Positions 1 to 47,821 of a stretch of 64,000 nt of DNA are shown here, in pieces; positions within the stretch are counted from its first letter, which is position 1, and every line of letters begins with the position of its first letter. The position numbers and the translations under genes were made by a program. The notes under the pieces are model-generated. The model was not told where the DNA came from and made no database searches. It was given only the letters and a program-made list of their open reading frames with translations. The stretch is from Pseudomonadota bacterium (GTDB lineage: Bacteria; Desulfobacterota; Desulfobacteria; Desulfobacterales; RPRI01): contig JAHITX010000058.1 of assembly GCA_018817425.1 (NCBI GenBank), positions 1-64,000 of the forward strand. The letters run 5' to 3'.

Positions 1-193
1 AATTATACAATATTGGGAAAAATGACTGAAAGATCGTTCCGCGGGCCTTACCCTCAACCCGTCCCAGTTTCTCCATGTTTTCAGAAGGTTTTGGGACAAT
101 CAATGTTCTTTGGGATGCACAACCCACTGTGAATAGTACCAACAATAAAATAATACATAATGTACTGCCTTTTGATTTAATATTTTGTTTCAT
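1..193 (-). CDS. Small lipoprotein, partial at left edge (paralogue of the gene at 991-1329)
   Basis: The gene starts at the ATG complementary to 191-193 and runs off the left edge, so about 64 codons are visible. The N-terminus is a lipoprotein signal: basic residues, a hydrophobic stretch, then a lipobox reading TVGC followed by ASQRT. The mature part (SENMEKLGRVEGKA, then a GTIFQ block) aligns residue by residue with the lipoprotein at 991-1329. The two genes therefore derive from a tandem duplication, supported by the shared intergenic sequence to the right. Export to the periplasm and lipid anchoring are inferred from the lipobox. The biological role is unknown. Confidence 0.7.
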   Translation of the reverse strand, partial: MKQNIKSKGSTLCIILLLVLFTVGCASQRTLIVPKPSENMEKLGRVEGKARGTIFQSFFPILYN

Positions 194-538
194 TTCGACT
201 CCATACTTCTTATTAACGGTTCATAATATTAAAAAAACAAAAGCCCCATACTTCAATTTTATGAAGATTGGGGCTTATTTGTATCCGGTCATATTAAATC
301 CTCGAGAGCTTTAAAAAAAGTAAAATACAAAATGAGATATAGGATTATATATTCCTCAAAATATCACAACTTGTATAATGAACAAAAATACAAAAATCCC
401 GATAGCACTTTGCCTGAATTAAATCAATAAAATTTTTAGAATAAAAGTGTAGAATTTAATGCTTTTGAAAAAATTGCTCAGGGCAATAAGCTATTATGGG
501 GATGCGCTATTTCAAAACTCTATTGATATAAGAAATAA
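194..538. repeat. Copy 1 of a duplicated intergenic block (about 330 bp)
   Basis: Positions 220-547 are nearly identical to 1554-1856 plus 1999-2024. The block holds the terminator hairpin at 241-276 and otherwise no credible gene. Copy 1 is uninterrupted, whereas copy 2 carries the 142-bp element at 1857-1998, so copy 1 preserves the empty insertion site. Confidence 0.85.
241..276 (-). terminator. Intrinsic terminator of the lipoprotein pair
   Basis: The arms AAGCCCCAT-CTTCA and TGAAGAT-GGGGCTT pair with one mismatch around a short AT loop. Read leftwards, the hairpin is followed by a T-rich run (complement of 230-240). It lies just downstream of the leftward pair at 539-1329. A second copy is at 1575-1610. 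Confidence 0.75.
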
Positions 539-994
539 TTATTGTTTTAAGAAATTGCTTAAAAGCTGTTGCCGTGCCTTTTCATATTCTTTTTCTGATA
601 TCTCTCCACCTGCATAAAGAGTTTTCAGCGCTTCTATTTTGTCAGTAAGAATCTGTTTGGAATCGATTGCCAAAGGATAAGCGTCCGCTGTTAAAATTGT
701 TACATACTTATGACCGATAAAAACCCAGCGCCACACTTCTTGAATTGCAATATTTGTTAGATAATTATTTCCAGCTTCATCTTTCAGAAGTTCATAAGCA
801 TAAGCTTGTCTGTTGTTAACACCAATGGGTATGAAATCAAAAAGAAGAAGGCCTACTGCTCTGGCTCTCACCTTGTGTCTCTGTGACAAATCGAGTTTTG
901 CTATCGGTGCATCTGAAAAATGCACCGGAGTTCCGGCACAGCCAAACATAACTGCCGACAAGAGCACTGTTATGAGTTTTGTTTTGATATTCAT
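539..994 (-). CDS. Lipoprotein with C-terminal SHOCT-like domain
   Basis: The product is about 151 residues. I chose the ATG at 994 rather than the longer frame from 1048, because it is preceded by GGGGAGG and opens directly into a lipoprotein signal ending in MFGCAGT. The middle is hydrophobic and probably beta-rich (GLLLFDFIPIG, VWRWVFIGHKY). The last 35 residues match a SHOCT-type short C-terminal domain (KIEALKTLYAGGEIS then EKEYEKARQQLL), usually found in oligomerising membrane or envelope proteins. The start overlaps the stop of the upstream lipoprotein in an ATGA arrangement, so the two are translationally coupled. Function unknown; an envelope stress or scaffold role is only a guess. 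Confidence 0.75.
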   Translation of the reverse strand: MNIKTKLITVLLSAVMFGCAGTPVHFSDAPIAKLDLSQRHKVRARAVGLLLFDFIPIGVNNRQAYAYELLKDEAGNNYLTNIAIQEVWRWVFIGHKYVTILTADAYPLAIDSKQILTDKIEALKTLYAGGEISEKEYEKARQQLLSNFLKQ

Positions 995-1329
995 CTTACA
1001 GCCTCCCCTGAAATGGTCAAGATTGAAAAGGTGCCTAAAGAGTACCACAACCAGTCTTCCTGGAGCGTTACATCAATCAGGGCTGTTGCTCCCGGTGCTT
1101 TTGCAAGTGCGTCAGCATAGGCACGGTCCGTACGAGAATTATGAAATATTGAGAAAAACATCTGAAAGATCGTTCCGTAAGCTTTACCCTCAACCCGTCC
1201 TAGTTTCTGCATATTTTCAGGTGGCATAGGAACAATGGTCGTCCTCTGAGATGAGCAACTCGCTATTAATACCACCAAAAGCAGAGCAAGGCATAATGTG
1301 CGGCCTATCGGTCTATTTTGTATTTTCAT
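991..1329 (-). CDS. Small lipoprotein, first gene of a coupled pair
   Basis: The product is 112 residues when started at the ATG at 1329, which has GGAG just upstream and leads into a classical lipoprotein signal with lipobox IASC. The longer frame to 1365 adds residues unlike a signal peptide. The mature sequence contains MPPENMQKLGRVEGKA, shared with the partial lipoprotein at 1-193, and ends with DVTLQEDWLWYSLG, which resembles the VWRWVFIGHKY block of the downstream gene. All three lipoproteins are thus probably distantly related. The stop overlaps the next start (ATGA). Role unknown. Confidence 0.75.
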   Translation of the reverse strand: MKIQNRPIGRTLCLALLLVVLIASCSSQRTTIVPMPPENMQKLGRVEGKAYGTIFQMFFSIFHNSRTDRAYADALAKAPGATALIDVTLQEDWLWYSLGTFSILTISGEAVR

Positions 1330-1574
1330 TTTGGCTCCATATTGGTTATTTAAAAATGTGAGCACTTATAATCATCGTGCTCCAAAGTTCTTCACGGCTT
1401 CCACAATTGCTTTGTGGTGATCAGGGCCATACGCATGTTCGTTATTCAATTTATTTTTTTCATCGCTTCTTTCTCCTTTAGGCATATAACCTGTTCCCAT
1501 CTAATTGAGCTAAAAACTTGCTACCTTAAGATTTTCATCCCAATTTTTAATAGTTCACAATATTAAAAAAACAA

Positions 1575-1610
1575 AAGCCCCATACTTCAATTTTATGAAG
1601 ATTGGGGCTT
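1575..1610 (-). terminator. Terminator hairpin, second copy
   Basis: Same 36-base hairpin as 241-276. It is followed leftwards by a T-rich run but has no intact leftward gene immediately upstream, as expected if the genes of this duplicated copy were lost. Confidence 0.6.
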
Positions 1611-1856
1611 ATTTGTTTCCGGTCATATTAAATCCTCGAGAGCTTTAAAAAAGTAAAATACAAAATGAGATACAGGATTAATATATTCCTCAAAATATCA
1701 CAACTTGTATAATGAACAAAAATATAAAAATCCCGATAGCACTTTGCCTGAATTAAATCAATAAAAATTTAGAATAAAATTTAGAATTTAATGCTTTTGA
1801 AAAAATTGTTTAAGGCAATAAGCCAGTATGGGGATGCGCTATTTCAAAACTCTATT

Positions 1857-1998
1857 GAGCCAGTTTCAAAACGCCCCAGTTTGGCCGATCTCTGCGTTGG
1901 GCTCAAATTGCAATCCTCGAAATACTCAATGTATTCCTGCGGTTGAAATTTTCGCCCGCCTTGAGCTTGACCAAACTGAAACGTTTTGAAAGTGGCTC
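1857..1998. mobile_element. 142-bp MITE-like hairpin element, copy 1 (TSD TATT)
   Basis: Ends are GAGCCAGTTTCAAAACG and its near-perfect inverted complement CGTTTTGAAAGTGGCTC. TATT stands on both sides (1853-1856 and 1999-2002). The paralogous sequence at 515-545 has a single TATT and no element, which gives the pre-insertion site. There is no coding capacity. Internal inverted repeats (CAATCC with GGTTG, AATAC with GTATT) make the whole element one long imperfect hairpin. Confidence 0.85.
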
Positions 1999-2152
1999 TA
2001 TTGATATTAGAAATAATTATTGTTGATCAGTTATTACTTCATTGGGAATTTCTATAAATTATACCTTTAGATATTAATACTATCTATTTGACACGCAGAT
2101 GAAATCGGTGAGAGGAATATTCACGGATTAATGCAATTAAGGAAAAACGGAT

Positions 2153-3304
2153 ATGAAAATTACACCTTTGATGAATGACGGATATGATGGCGAACCGGCT
2201 AAAAGAGTTTTGAACTATTTGCAGGGCCGAAAACAAAACGGGGTTCCGATAGTCGGTATATATTGCGGTTATGCGCCTATGGAGCTGATTCACTCTATGG
2301 GTATCGCACCGGCAAGTCTATGCGCATTTTCAAAAGTCCCTATAGAAGCTGCGGAAACAGTATTGCCGGCAAATCTCTGCCCTTTAATAAAATCGAGCTA
2401 TGGTTTTATTATTGAAGGGACCTGCCCGTTTTATGCCATGTCTCAGGCAGTAATTGCGGAAACTACTTGTGACGGGAAGAAAAAAATGTTTGAACTTATC
2501 GCAGATATCAAACCGATACATATTATGGATTTGCCGCAGGTGCCGGATGAAGTTGAAGCTGTGCAAAACTGGAAGAAAATGATTTTAAATCTTCAAAGGT
2601 TTCTTGAAAATACTTTTAATTGTAAAACATCGGATGAAAAAATTGAATCATCACTTTGCGCATCAAACATAAAAAATACTTTGATGCAAAAAATTTTCGA
2701 ATATGCATCACTCAAGCCTCCTGTTATAAGCTGGCAGGAGATGTATGATGTTTCCTTTTTGGCACAACCGGCAACTGCTGACGATGTTATACCCGTTCTT
2801 GAACAAGTGATAGAAAAACTGGAAAAGCGTGTAGAAGAAGGCGTTTATTTTGGAAAGCCTGATTCGGTGCGGGTTTTGGTAACGGGTTGCCCCATAGGAG
2901 GGGATGCAACAAAAGTTTTTAAAGTGATAGAAGAATCAGGCGGTATCGTTGTAGCCCCGGATTCATGCACTGGAATGAAGACATTTATGGGCCGGTTCGA
3001 AGAAAACACAGATGATCCTGTAACTGCTATGGCCGAACGTTATTTGAAAATTCCCTGTTCCTGCATGACACCGAATAGTAAACGACTTGATGATCTATCC
3101 TTTTTAATAGAAAAATTTAAACCGGATGTTGTGATTGATTTTATACTTCAGGCTTGCCACTCCTATAATGTTGAGTCGTATAAGGTCGGCAATCATGTGA
3201 CCGGTAAACATTTGTTGCCGTTTCTTAAAATTGAAACAGATTACTCCGATGGAGATATCGGTCAGCTTAAAACAAGAATTGAGGCACTTTTTGAAAGTAT
3301 ATAA
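2153..3304 (+). CDS. Double-cubane-cluster-type reductase (2-hydroxyacyl-CoA dehydratase / BcrC-HgdB family)
   Basis: The product is 383 residues, a normal single-subunit length for the double-cubane cluster protein branch of the family. Conserved cysteines are visible at about 38 (YCGYAP), 57, 76 (NLCPL), 91 (GTCPFY) and 106, with further ones in TGCPIGG, PDSCTGM, PCSCM and QACHSY. In the family, cysteines of this kind bind iron-sulfur cubanes that receive very low-potential electrons from an ATP-hydrolysing partner. That partner is the next gene, 30 bases downstream. No second dehydratase subunit is present, which favours the single-subunit double-cubane reductases over true dehydratases or benzoyl-CoA reductase. 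Substrate unknown; acetylene reduction is described for a relative but physiological substrates are not. Confidence 0.8.
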   Translation: MKITPLMNDGYDGEPAKRVLNYLQGRKQNGVPIVGIYCGYAPMELIHSMGIAPASLCAFSKVPIEAAETVLPANLCPLIKSSYGFIIEGTCPFYAMSQAVIAETTCDGKKKMFELIADIKPIHIMDLPQVPDEVEAVQNWKKMILNLQRFLENTFNCKTSDEKIESSLCASNIKNTLMQKIFEYASLKPPVISWQEMYDVSFLAQPATADDVIPVLEQVIEKLEKRVEEGVYFGKPDSVRVLVTGCPIGGDATKVFKVIEESGGIVVAPDSCTGMKTFMGRFEENTDDPVTAMAERYLKIPCSCMTPNSKRLDDLSFLIEKFKPDVVIDFILQACHSYNVESYKVGNHVTGKHLLPFLKIETDYSDGDIGQLKTRIEALFESI

Positions 3305-3334
3305 GATTTATAATGGAGAGTTCAAGGTAAGATC

Positions 3335-4078
3335 ATGAAGTATGCAGGCATTGATATCGGATCTCGTACAATAGAACTTGTAGTTATCGAAGCGGATAAA
3401 ATCATATATTACTTCATGACCGATACCGGTTATGATCCTGTTTCACAGGTGAAAAGGCTGTTGCGCAAAATATCATACGATAAAATTATGGCAACAGGTT
3501 ATGGGCGCTCTCTGATCGGGTCATCTTTTGATATGCCTACGATAACTGAAATTAAAGCTCATGCCAGGGGTGCGCGGGCTTTATTTCCCGATGCTCAGAC
3601 TGTGCTTGATATTGGCGGTCAGGACAGCAAAGCTATTTTTATGAATAGTAACGGAAAAGTAAAAAAATTTGAAATGAATGACAAATGCGCTGCCGGTACA
3701 GGAAAGTTTCTGGAAATCATGGCGAAAACTTTGGGGTTTGATATTGACGATTTTGGCACGGAAGCATTTTATGGAAAAAACGATATCAATATTTCAAGCA
3801 TGTGTACTGTGTTTGCCGAATCCGAAGTCGTTTCCCTTATTGCAAGAGGTTGCAAAAGGCGTGAAATTGCAAAGGGTTTGCACAATAGTGTCATACGCCG
3901 TACAACCGGAATGATTAATCGTGTATCATCGGAAGGAGAAATCGTTTTTACGGGCGGTGTAGCAAAAAATCCTTGTATGCGTAACTTACTTGCAGAAAGA
4001 CTGGGTCGAAAAATTCTGATACCAAATGATCCCCAGATGGTTGGTGCTTTTGGAGCAGCTCTTCTTGCGGGAGAATGA
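3335..4078 (+). CDS. ATP-dependent activator of the double-cubane reductase (BadF/BadG/HgdC family)
   Basis: The product is 247 residues, typical for homodimeric activators of the ASKHA fold. It opens with the phosphate-binding loop GIDIGSRT and has the second ATP motif DIGGQDSKA around residue 92. Cys118 (NDKCAAGTG) and Cys157 (SSMCTVF) match the two cysteines per monomer that hold the shared [4Fe-4S] cluster at the dimer interface. A C-terminal GGVAKNP and VGAFGAALLA complete the family signature. It would inject electrons into the protein encoded 30 bases upstream at the cost of ATP. The two-gene unit has no obvious pathway genes beside it. Confidence 0.88.
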   Translation: MKYAGIDIGSRTIELVVIEADKIIYYFMTDTGYDPVSQVKRLLRKISYDKIMATGYGRSLIGSSFDMPTITEIKAHARGARALFPDAQTVLDIGGQDSKAIFMNSNGKVKKFEMNDKCAAGTGKFLEIMAKTLGFDIDDFGTEAFYGKNDINISSMCTVFAESEVVSLIARGCKRREIAKGLHNSVIRRTTGMINRVSSEGEIVFTGGVAKNPCMRNLLAERLGRKILIPNDPQMVGAFGAALLAGE

Positions 4079-29226: not shown

Positions 29227-29646
29227 ATGCTAAATATCACAGCAGCAAGACGAAGTAAGCGCGGTGTAACGGAATTGAACATGGCGCCGCTTATAGACAT
29301 GGTTTTTATCCTGTTGATCTTTTTTCTGGTGACAACTTCTTTTGTAAAAGAGACGGGAATCGATGTGAACCGGCCCACTGCCTCTACAGCAGTCAGCCAA
29401 TCCAAAGCAACCATTCTTATTGCAGTGGATCAGCAAAACCGTATTTTTATAGATCATCGTGAAATTGATATCCGCGCAGTGCGTGCTAATGTTGAACGCA
29501 ATCTTGCCGAGAATCCTGATGGTGCTATTATTGTTGTTGCGGACAAAGCCAGTACTACAGGAACAGCTATTACGGTTATGGACGGATGCCGTATGGCAGG
29601 TGCAAAAAATGTTTCTTTGGCTGCCGGTCTGCCGGAGAGTCAATAA
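29227..29646 (+). CDS. exbD: ExbD/TolR family protein
   Basis: The product is 139 residues. The cytoplasmic start RRSKRGVTELNMAPLIDMVF contains the proton-relay Asp in PLIDMVF within a single membrane helix (ILLIFFLVTTSFV). The periplasmic domain carries DQQNRIFIDHREID and IIVVADKAST. It forms the stator with the two ExbB-type proteins. A 142-bp mobile element separates this gene from tonB. Confidence 0.88.
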   Translation: MLNITAARRSKRGVTELNMAPLIDMVFILLIFFLVTTSFVKETGIDVNRPTASTAVSQSKATILIAVDQQNRIFIDHREIDIRAVRANVERNLAENPDGAIIVVADKASTTGTAITVMDGCRMAGAKNVSLAAGLPESQ

Positions 29647-29655
29647 GAAAGAATA

Positions 29656-29797
29656 GAGCTAGTTTCAAAACGTCCCATTTTGGCCGATCTCTGCGTTGGG
29701 TAAAAATTTTAATCCTCGAAATACTACATGTATTCCTGCGGTTAAAATTTTTACCCGCCTTGACCTTGACCAAACTGAAACGTTTTGAAAGTAGCTC
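29656..29797. mobile_element. 142-bp MITE-like element, copy 2, between exbD and tonB
   Basis: Ends are GAGCTAGTTTCAAAACG and CGTTTTGAAAGTAGCTC. The flanks AATA and AAAA are only a near match for a target duplication. The inner stem reads TTTTAATCC with GGTTAAAA, where copies 1, 3 and 5 have a CAATCC/GGTTG-type pairing, so both sides changed together. It sits inside an operon. Confidence 0.8.
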
Positions 29798-29843
29798 AAA
29801 AGTATTTATTTTACGAAATATGGGGTATCGGAGATTTGATAGC

Positions 29844-30536
29844 ATGGATGACTTTCGACAGTACTATTATAAAGTAATTCACCGTAAAAACTGGGCTACC
29901 TGGATGTGGGCCGGGGTAGGGGCATTTGGTATGAATTTGATGTTGTTCGCCATGATGCCCAATCTGTTGCATCGTTCATCCGCTCCGCCGTTACTGGATA
30001 CTCTGGTTCCCCAGATTAATGTGATTCGTATCAGGCGGCCTGATACACCGGTGGAACGAAAACAGCCAAAACTCCCTGAGCCTGTGGCCAAAAAAATCGA
30101 AGTTTCTGTTCCTGCCTACCGTCTGTCTACGCCACGGAATTATAATATTCCGTTTGAAGTCAATACCAGACTGCCGGCCGGGTCAGATAGCGTTCAGGTT
30201 CCACCCATGGCTCAGATGGCAGTAAATATACCTGATACTTCCGGCATTGCCATGTTGGGTGACCTTGATCAACCGCTGGTGACGTTAACACGCATGCCGC
30301 CGTTTTATCCTCTTGAAGCCAAACGCAGAGGGATTGAAGGATGGGTTAATGTAAAGTTTGTTGTCAACAAACAGGGTCAACCGGAAAATATATCAGTTGT
30401 TGAAGCAAAACCTCCCCGTATTTTTGATGCAAGTGTTTTGCGCTGTATATCAGGCTGGCGTTTTAAGCCTGGAACCATACAAGGCTTGCCCGTAAAGGTA
30501 TGGGCAGAAACAACAATCCGTTTTGAATTGGAATAA
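29844..30536 (+). CDS. tonB: TonB family energy-transducing protein
   Basis: The product is 230 residues from the ATG at 29844, which has GGAG ten bases upstream. The open frame to the left runs into the mobile element and exbD and is not real. One N-terminal membrane helix (WMWAGVGAFGMNLMLFAMM) is followed by a Pro-rich spacer (RRPDTPVERKQPKLPEPV) and a C-terminal TonB domain (PPFYPLEAKRRGIEGWVNVK, DASVLRCISGWRFKPGT). The YPLEAKRRGIEG motif contacts receptor TonB boxes. Four receptor genes in the window are potential clients, the nearest two genes downstream. Confidence 0.87.
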   Translation: MDDFRQYYYKVIHRKNWATWMWAGVGAFGMNLMLFAMMPNLLHRSSAPPLLDTLVPQINVIRIRRPDTPVERKQPKLPEPVAKKIEVSVPAYRLSTPRNYNIPFEVNTRLPAGSDSVQVPPMAQMAVNIPDTSGIAMLGDLDQPLVTLTRMPPFYPLEAKRRGIEGWVNVKFVVNKQGQPENISVVEAKPPRIFDASVLRCISGWRFKPGTIQGLPVKVWAETTIRFELE

Positions 30537-36684: not shown

Positions 36685-36826
36685 TAGCCAGTTTCAAAAC
36701 GCCCCATTTTGGCCGATCTCTGCGTTGGGCTCAAATTTCAATCCTCGAAATACTCAATGTATTCCTGCGGTTGATATTTTCTCCCGCCTTGAGCTTGACC
36801 AAACTGAAACGTTTTGAAAGTGGCTC
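36685..36826. mobile_element. 142-bp MITE-like element, copy 3 (TSD GTAG)
   Basis: Begins TAGCCAGTTTCAAAACG (first base changed from G) and ends CGTTTTGAAAGTGGCTC, flanked by GTAG at 36681-36684 and 36827-36830. It separates the end of the methylase operon from the permease gene and may influence read-through. Confidence 0.85.
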
Positions 36827-46887: not shown

Positions 46888-46946
46888 GGGTTGATAATTT
46901 CTCCCGCCTTGAGCTTGACCAAACTGAAACGCTTTGAAAGTGGCTC
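46888..46946. mobile_element. MITE-like element, copy 4, right half only
   Basis: About 59 bases from GGTTGATAATTTCTCCCGCC to the TIR end (GCTTTGAAAGTGGCTC). It matches copy 3 best. The left half is absent. Confidence 0.75.
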
Positions 46947-47393: not shown

Positions 47394-47578
47394 GAGCCAG
47401 TTTTAAAACGCCTTATTTGGCCGATCTTTGCGTTGGGCTCAAATTTCGCAAGAAGTGACACGTAGTGAAGCATAGCGCTAACCATCAGCGCTATCCTCTA
47501 AATACTCAATGTATTCCTGTGTTTGAAATTTTTTCCCGCCTTGAGCTTGACTAAACTGAAACGTTTTGAAATTGGCTC
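47394..47578. mobile_element. MITE-like element, copy 5, with internal insertion (TSD GTTA)
   Basis: GAGCCAGTTTTAAAACG to CGTTTTGAAATTGGCTC, flanked by GTTA on both sides (47390-47393 and 47579-47582). About 43 extra bases lie inside the left stem and contain the inverted repeat ATAGCGCT / AGCGCTAT. Confidence 0.83.
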
Positions 47579-47677
47579 GTTATCTTGCGATTTTAAATAA
47601 TTATACACATATACCTTGCCAATTTATATTGCTGGCATATTAATTGCTTTTTAAAACAAAAACTTATTATAGCAAAT

Positions 47678-47821
47678 GAGCCAGTTTCAAAACGTCCCAT
47701 TTCGGCCGATCTCTGCGTTGGGTGAAAATTTTAATCCTCGAAATACTCCATGTATTCCTGCGGTTAAAATTTTCCCCCCCACCTCGAGCTTGACCAAGCT
47801 GAAACGTTTTGAAAGTGGCTC
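47678..47821. mobile_element. MITE-like element, copy 6
   Basis: Complete TIRs (GAGCCAGTTTCAAAACG / CGTTTTGAAAGTGGCTC), 144 bases, with the TTTTAATCC/GGTTAAAA inner stem variant also seen in copy 2. The flanks AAAT and TCAA show no target duplication, so it may be older or rearranged. Confidence 0.8.

Follow-up and report, generated by a model that had tools for sequence, protein, structure and literature searches.

A high-copy MITE of Desulfobacterota with a covarying interior hairpin and two end types linked to 4- and 5-bp target duplications

Background

The window analysed here, a stretch of 64,000 nucleotides of a Desulfobacterales contig (JAHITX010000058.1), contains two closely similar blocks, the second of which is interrupted by a 142-bp palindromic insert. 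This raises the question of what the insert is and how it came to reside there. The original prediction was that it is a MITE-like element that transposed into a site whose empty form survives in the first block. On the evidence presented below, we consider it very likely that the insert is a non-autonomous DNA transposon (MITE) of the Desulfobacterota that is moved in trans by a DDE transposase, most probably of the IS5 superfamily, with a 4-bp stagger, and whose hairpin is maintained.

Results and discussion

The element and its preserved empty site

Positions 1850-2007 of the window read CTC TATT / GAGCCAG...GTGGCTC / TATT GATAT, whereas the corresponding site in the block 220-547 is an uninterrupted CTC TATT GATAT. 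When the element is deleted in silico, the filled and empty blocks align with ~95% identity, and the junction of the filled block retains exactly one additional TATT. Both the 142-bp element and its empty site had therefore been predicted correctly to the base (Table 1). The element is bounded by terminal inverted repeats of 17 bp, left and right being identical at 16/17 positions, and the window contains 12 matches to the end motif at up to three mismatches, as against 0.16 expected. The empty site owes its preservation to the duplication of a diverged repeat unit (window 1-547 and 1137-2024) around a small lipoprotein-like gene, the starts of the units lying 1136-1334 bp apart.

Further copies of varying age are found in the same window, and the duplications of equal length that had been predicted for two of them (GTAG and GTTA) are indeed present. 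The copy at 29656-29797 is close to those amplified in the sister species discussed below; a TonB-like protein ORF (29586-30536) stays open through it, and the true start of this ORF is likely to lie downstream of the MITE (MGYRRF...). The left arm of longer copies (164/165 and 187/188 bp) is extended by one or two units of ~23 bp (CACGAAGTGA..TAGCGCTA), e.g. in the copy at 47394-47578 and in those at L137 2774, L138 18676, L152 8833 and others. A similar module is seen in other hosts, where it may occupy either arm (L079, L076).

Table 1. Coordinates of the element, its copies and empty site in the window, and of IS5-family elements from the order
Sequence	Feature	Coordinates	Strand	Target duplication
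Window	MITE, GAGCCA type, full length, 142 bp	1857..1998	+	TATT
Window	Left target-site duplication	1853..1856	.	TATT
Window	Right target-site duplication	1999..2002	.	TATT
Window	Left terminal inverted repeat, GAGCCAGTTTCAAAACG	1857..1873	+	
Window	Right terminal inverted repeat, GAGCCACTTTCAAAACG (as read on - strand)	1982..1998	-	
Window	Paralogous block without element, empty site CTC-TATT-GATAT	220..547	+	
Window	Paralogous block with element (filled)	1554..2024	+	
Window	Older full copy, 142 bp	29656..29797	+	AATA/AAAA (imperfect)
Window	Young full copy, 142 bp	36685..36826	+	GTAG/GTAG
Window	Right-end fragment	46889..46946	+	
Window	185-bp copy with additional internal left-arm module	47394..47578	+	GTTA/GTTA
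Window	Older copy, 144 bp	47678..47821	+	lost
L359	IS5-family element	1240-2675		AGTGT
L385	IS5-family element	892-2318		AGCCG
L376	IS5-family element	1303-2725		GATAT

Copy number and target duplications in the genome

Counting the 17-bp terminal repeat through the entire genome (5,123,197 bases in 147 contigs), as the original prediction had proposed, yielded 221 forward and 229 reverse matches at up to two mismatches (450 in total), while the reversed control pattern gave 0 forward and 1 reverse; the genome thus harbors about 220 elements. Many contigs end inside copies, as expected of a short-read assembly. In 830 kb of the genome picked for copy richness we collected 84 copies, of which 64 full ones with both flanks could be scored. 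An exact 4-bp duplication flanks 38 of these 64, against 1.3 expected from shuffled flanks; a further 12 have one mismatch within the four bases, and 5-bp duplications occur in 2/64. The duplications are AT-rich and lack a fixed sequence. Copies with an intact duplication diverge from the consensus by a mean of 3.5%, as compared to 4.6% for the others (one-sided p = 0.03). Length variants among the sampled full copies span 140-188 bp, well inside the roughly 100-500 bp typical of MITEs, and a transposase gene is absent from them. The flanks of different copies are mutually unrelated, with at most 19/24 bases alike in any pair, and orientation relative to neighboring genes is random (19 same, 20 opposite). 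Only 2/64 copies lie inside predicted ORFs though 82% of the sequence is coding, a count based on crude ORF calls in which 18 copies touch an ORF end. The predicted ends and 4-bp duplication accordingly hold in tens of independent copies of the genome; the inconsistent ends or missing duplications that would have pointed away from transposition were not what the genomic copies displayed.

High copy number, the capacity to fold and an intergenic location are also features of REP/RAYT-like single-strand elements mobilized by Y1 transposases. But the present element combines constant 4-bp (or 5-bp) duplications with true terminal inverted repeats, neither of which is known from Y1/RAYT elements. 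REP/REPIN elements are recognized by the lack of a target duplication, and the duplications seen here are clear. We regard a relationship of this kind as highly improbable.

Independent amplification in a sister species and spread across the order

The genome of a sister species (G072) contains ~240 elements, and of its 30 scorable full copies sampled 24 show an exact 4-bp duplication and 2 a 5-bp duplication, extending the claim for ends and duplication length beyond the genome in which it was made. Flank-matched orthologous sites, three starting from this genome and three from the sister, were without the element in the other genome in 6/6 cases, several of these alignments diverging at the exact junction and hence documenting that the element is missing, not an empty site perfect to the base. 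The three window copies at ~46.9-47.8 kb are likewise absent from the orthologous intergenic region of the sister. Transposition is thus backed by the paralogous empty site as well as by the six orthologous sites, and the element has amplified separately in the two sister species.

These data also bear on the view that segmental duplication or homologous recombination carried the copies along as passengers, the TATT repeat being a coincidence. The element does sit in a duplicated block, and two copies lie near each other (47394-47821), but the flanks of the copies are unrelated, 4-bp duplications occur at ~30 times the expected frequency, and at none of the six orthologous sites does the other genome have the element. 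Constant-length duplications at unrelated sites refute passenger spread, to which we assign next to no probability.

In a survey of 389 genomes of the order, 77 had at least one end match and about 25, drawn from many families, had several; most genomes had none. Full-length homologues of ~142 bp can be aligned with the window element from one end to the other and occur patchily in many Desulfobacterales families, with 4-bp duplications in 10 of 14 homologous elements from other families. The exact core pattern (22 fixed bases) recovered at least 117 stretches from GTDB genomes; among the 80 matches listed, all came from Desulfobacterota groups (Desulfobacterales, Desulfobacteraceae, Syntrophobacterales and similar) or from MAGs labeled unspecifically as 'Proteobacteria' or 'Deltaproteobacteria'. 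Plasmid and phage collections gave no match to the element, and matches to the terminal repeat in viral contigs were dismissed as chance hits within phage genes. The open-access literature yielded no published description of the element in Desulfobacterota.

Two end types on one core

The homologues fall into two types that share a core and differ in their ends: those with GAGCCA-N-TTTCAAAACG ends, including the window element, have 4-bp duplications, whereas those with GAGACCTTTGCAAAAC ends (the GAGACC type) have 5-bp duplications. The second set of ends reads GAGACCTTTG(C/A)A-AAC. In a first genome sample, GAGACC-type elements had 5-bp duplications in 21 cases and a 4-bp duplication in 1, while GAGCCA-like elements (GAGCC, GAGGC, GAGTC) had 4-bp duplications in 16 and a 5-bp duplication in 1 (Fisher p = 7e-9). 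A second, partly overlapping sample gave 5-bp to 4-bp ratios of 11:0 for GAGACC and 0:10 for GAGCCA-like elements. When end types are mapped on a tree of the interior, ~3 changes are required, as against 16 with shuffled labels, indicating that a core mostly passes on its ends and seldom exchanges them.

In the viral collection, GAGACCTTTGCAAAA ends are found both on IS5-family elements (L278 4531-5749, L324 12569-13790) and on hairpin elements of 142 and 181 bp (L323 5405-5546, L249 1368-1548); those of L324, L323 and L249 have 5-bp duplications.

The search for a transposase

IS5-family elements of the order begin with GAGACCTTTGCA(T/C)AAC, and three of them have 5-bp duplications (Table 1). 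The transposase of the first (L359) scores above the NCBIfam cut-off for the IS5-family model NF033581 and contains PF05598/PF01609 (DUF772 + DDE_Tnp_1). Another IS5-family element, on a viral contig, has GAGACCTTTGCAAAAC ends with a 5-bp duplication, GGCCT; we take it to be IS1106-like. As these IS elements share both the ends and the 5-bp duplication length of the GAGACC-type MITEs, the latter very probably use an IS5-family transposase.

The window element is of the GAGCCA type, the ends of which only resemble those of IS5. The full-length autonomous relative anticipated by the original prediction, with GAGCCA-N-TTTCAAAACG ends and 4-bp duplications, did not turn up in the element's own genome, the sister or the order genomes searched, and no cognate IS with 4-bp duplications was found for this type in the genomes searched. 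Given this absence of an autonomous GAGCCA partner from the searches, we can assign the GAGCCA ends to the IS5 superfamily only by inference, from their resemblance and the shared core.

Several candidates were set aside. The transposases of the element's own genome (DDE_Tnp_1, DUF772 and DUF4096 domains) belong to a small number of IS of different types that lack these ends, and no convincing long terminal-repeat pair emerged from 830 kb of its sequence. A same-genus genome contains a decayed DUF4096-type IS, frameshifted and 942 bp long, with the ends GAGCCCATTTCAAAACC and GAACCCATTTCAAAACC and no duplication. Its relatives have GAAGCCATTTCAAAACC ends and TA (2-bp) flanks, for which reason we treat this GAGCCC-ended IS as a look-alike rather than a proven mover. 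A 1637-bp candidate between two GAGACC ends in another genome (L205) comprises ordinary host genes, e.g. for a peptidyl-prolyl isomerase, and is not a transposon. Five genomes rich in GAGACC-type ends (G106, G081, G037, G225, G263) have no matching IS5 transposase listed, and thus element-rich genomes tend to be without a detectable mover.

In the mechanism that we propose, a DDE transposase, by its presumed type most likely of the IS5 superfamily, would be supplied in trans and would recognize the inverted GAGCCA-N-TTTCAAAACG ends. Insertion would occur at AT-rich intergenic sites by a 4-bp staggered cut, giving rise to the TATT duplication at the window element. The IS5-type transposase would by now be absent from the genome or not assembled. 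The 142-nt unit itself is kept foldable into a hairpin over its full length, the fold perhaps aiding the persistence or movement of the element, or the arms perhaps correcting each other during replication.

A covarying interior hairpin

Single-strand folding of the element compared with shuffled sequences gave z = -8.8 and -10.6 for the two strands, a far better fold than that of the shuffles, as with any inverted repeat; the informative test concerns the region outside the terminal repeats. Across 47 gap-free 142-mers, pairing is 97.9% intact at the 22 interior pairs, 13 of which have changed on both sides without losing it. Cells with such a two-sided change number 49; shuffling gave 7.5, and sliding the partner gave 2-12. 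Placed on a tree of the remaining columns, they correspond to 29 independent compensatory origins, whereas 300 random re-pairings averaged 4.9 and never exceeded 14, with the qualification that the hairpin was predicted from the same alignment on which it was tested and that this alignment was mostly gathered by the exact core pattern. The excess of compensatory origins suggests either that the fold is of importance or that each arm is corrected from the other.

Both selection on the fold and templated arm correction predict compensatory change. In the latter, strand switching during replication of the quasi-palindrome would copy mutations from arm to arm. This would fit the joint change of both arms even within the terminal repeats (columns 4, 6 and 10) and the simultaneous switch of end type at both ends. 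However, mismatches that arm correction should erase are fixed in most or nearly all copies at columns 64/80, 19/124 and 29/114. Templated correction, which competes with our reading of the hairpin and leaves the MITE itself untouched, is quite conceivable, if short of probable. We also entertain, with somewhat greater reserve, the idea that the hairpin is a working part of the element: its interior may be under selection (e.g. if it is recognized in the form of single-stranded or cruciform DNA or of RNA), and the transposase partner may have been swapped by changing both ends together, the duplication shifting between 5 and 4 bp and the 142-nt core being kept.

A conserved hairpin could also mean that the element, having spread by transposition, is now kept mainly as a host-useful RNA or DNA structure, akin to an ERIC-like regulatory hairpin. 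The compensatory changes of the interior, the strong single-strand fold of both strands and the near-exclusion of copies from coding DNA are all compatible with such a role. Against it, orientation is unbiased with respect to flanking genes, the compared sites are not common to the sister species, the element is missing from most genomes of the order, and positions 1-4000 of the window give no Rfam match at gathering thresholds. A primarily host-serving structure thus appears improbable, and we return to the MITE as the preferred reading.

Comparison with known elements

Enterobacterial repetitive intergenic consensus (ERIC) sequences are short, gene-less, full-length imperfect palindromes. 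They reach up to 711 copies in Photorhabdus and 150 in Salmonella (PMC10969869). The present element resembles them in these structural respects, in its high copy number and in its mostly intergenic location, but differs in sequence and hosts, and its 4-bp (or 5-bp) duplications and IS5-like ends indicate a transposon class. MITEAba12 of Acinetobacter is 113 bp long, with 16-bp ends common to a coresident IS, ISAba12, from which its 9-bp duplications derive; duplications flank 40% of its copies, of which no genome has more than 22, it occurs across a bacterial family without a preferred orientation, and its conservation lies mainly in the ends, the centre being variable (PMC6382973). Our element, by comparison, has ~220 copies, 4-bp duplications and a conserved, covarying centre, and its coresident partner was not found. 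The IS5 family (IS1106-like, NF033581/DUF772 transposases) has GAGACCTTTGCA(A/C/T)AAC ends and 5-bp duplications that match the second end type of the core, but its members are autonomous and 1.2-1.4 kb long, and have ~16 bp of end sequence, not the interior, in common with the element; GAGCCA ends were not seen on the IS5-family elements examined. Chunjie, a MITE of Geobacter uraniireducens in the former Deltaproteobacteria, is described as 235 bp long with 38 copies (PMC10969869), and our element differs from it in length and copy number.

Conclusion

The element is a high-copy MITE, and in this respect of a known kind. Two of its features are unusual: two end types occur on a single core, one going with 4-bp and the other with 5-bp duplications, and the interior covaries. 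Judged against published copy numbers (PMC10969869), it is among the more abundant bacterial MITEs, and it ranges over an order whose members, sulfate reducers and syntrophs, are mostly known from metagenomes alone. It is also of practical consequence as it disrupts short-read assemblies, several contigs of this genome terminating inside copies. One core with paired end types and different duplication lengths constitutes a natural experiment on transposase specificity and target stagger, and the covarying interior raises the question of whether the body of a MITE, usually deemed inert filler, may be functional.
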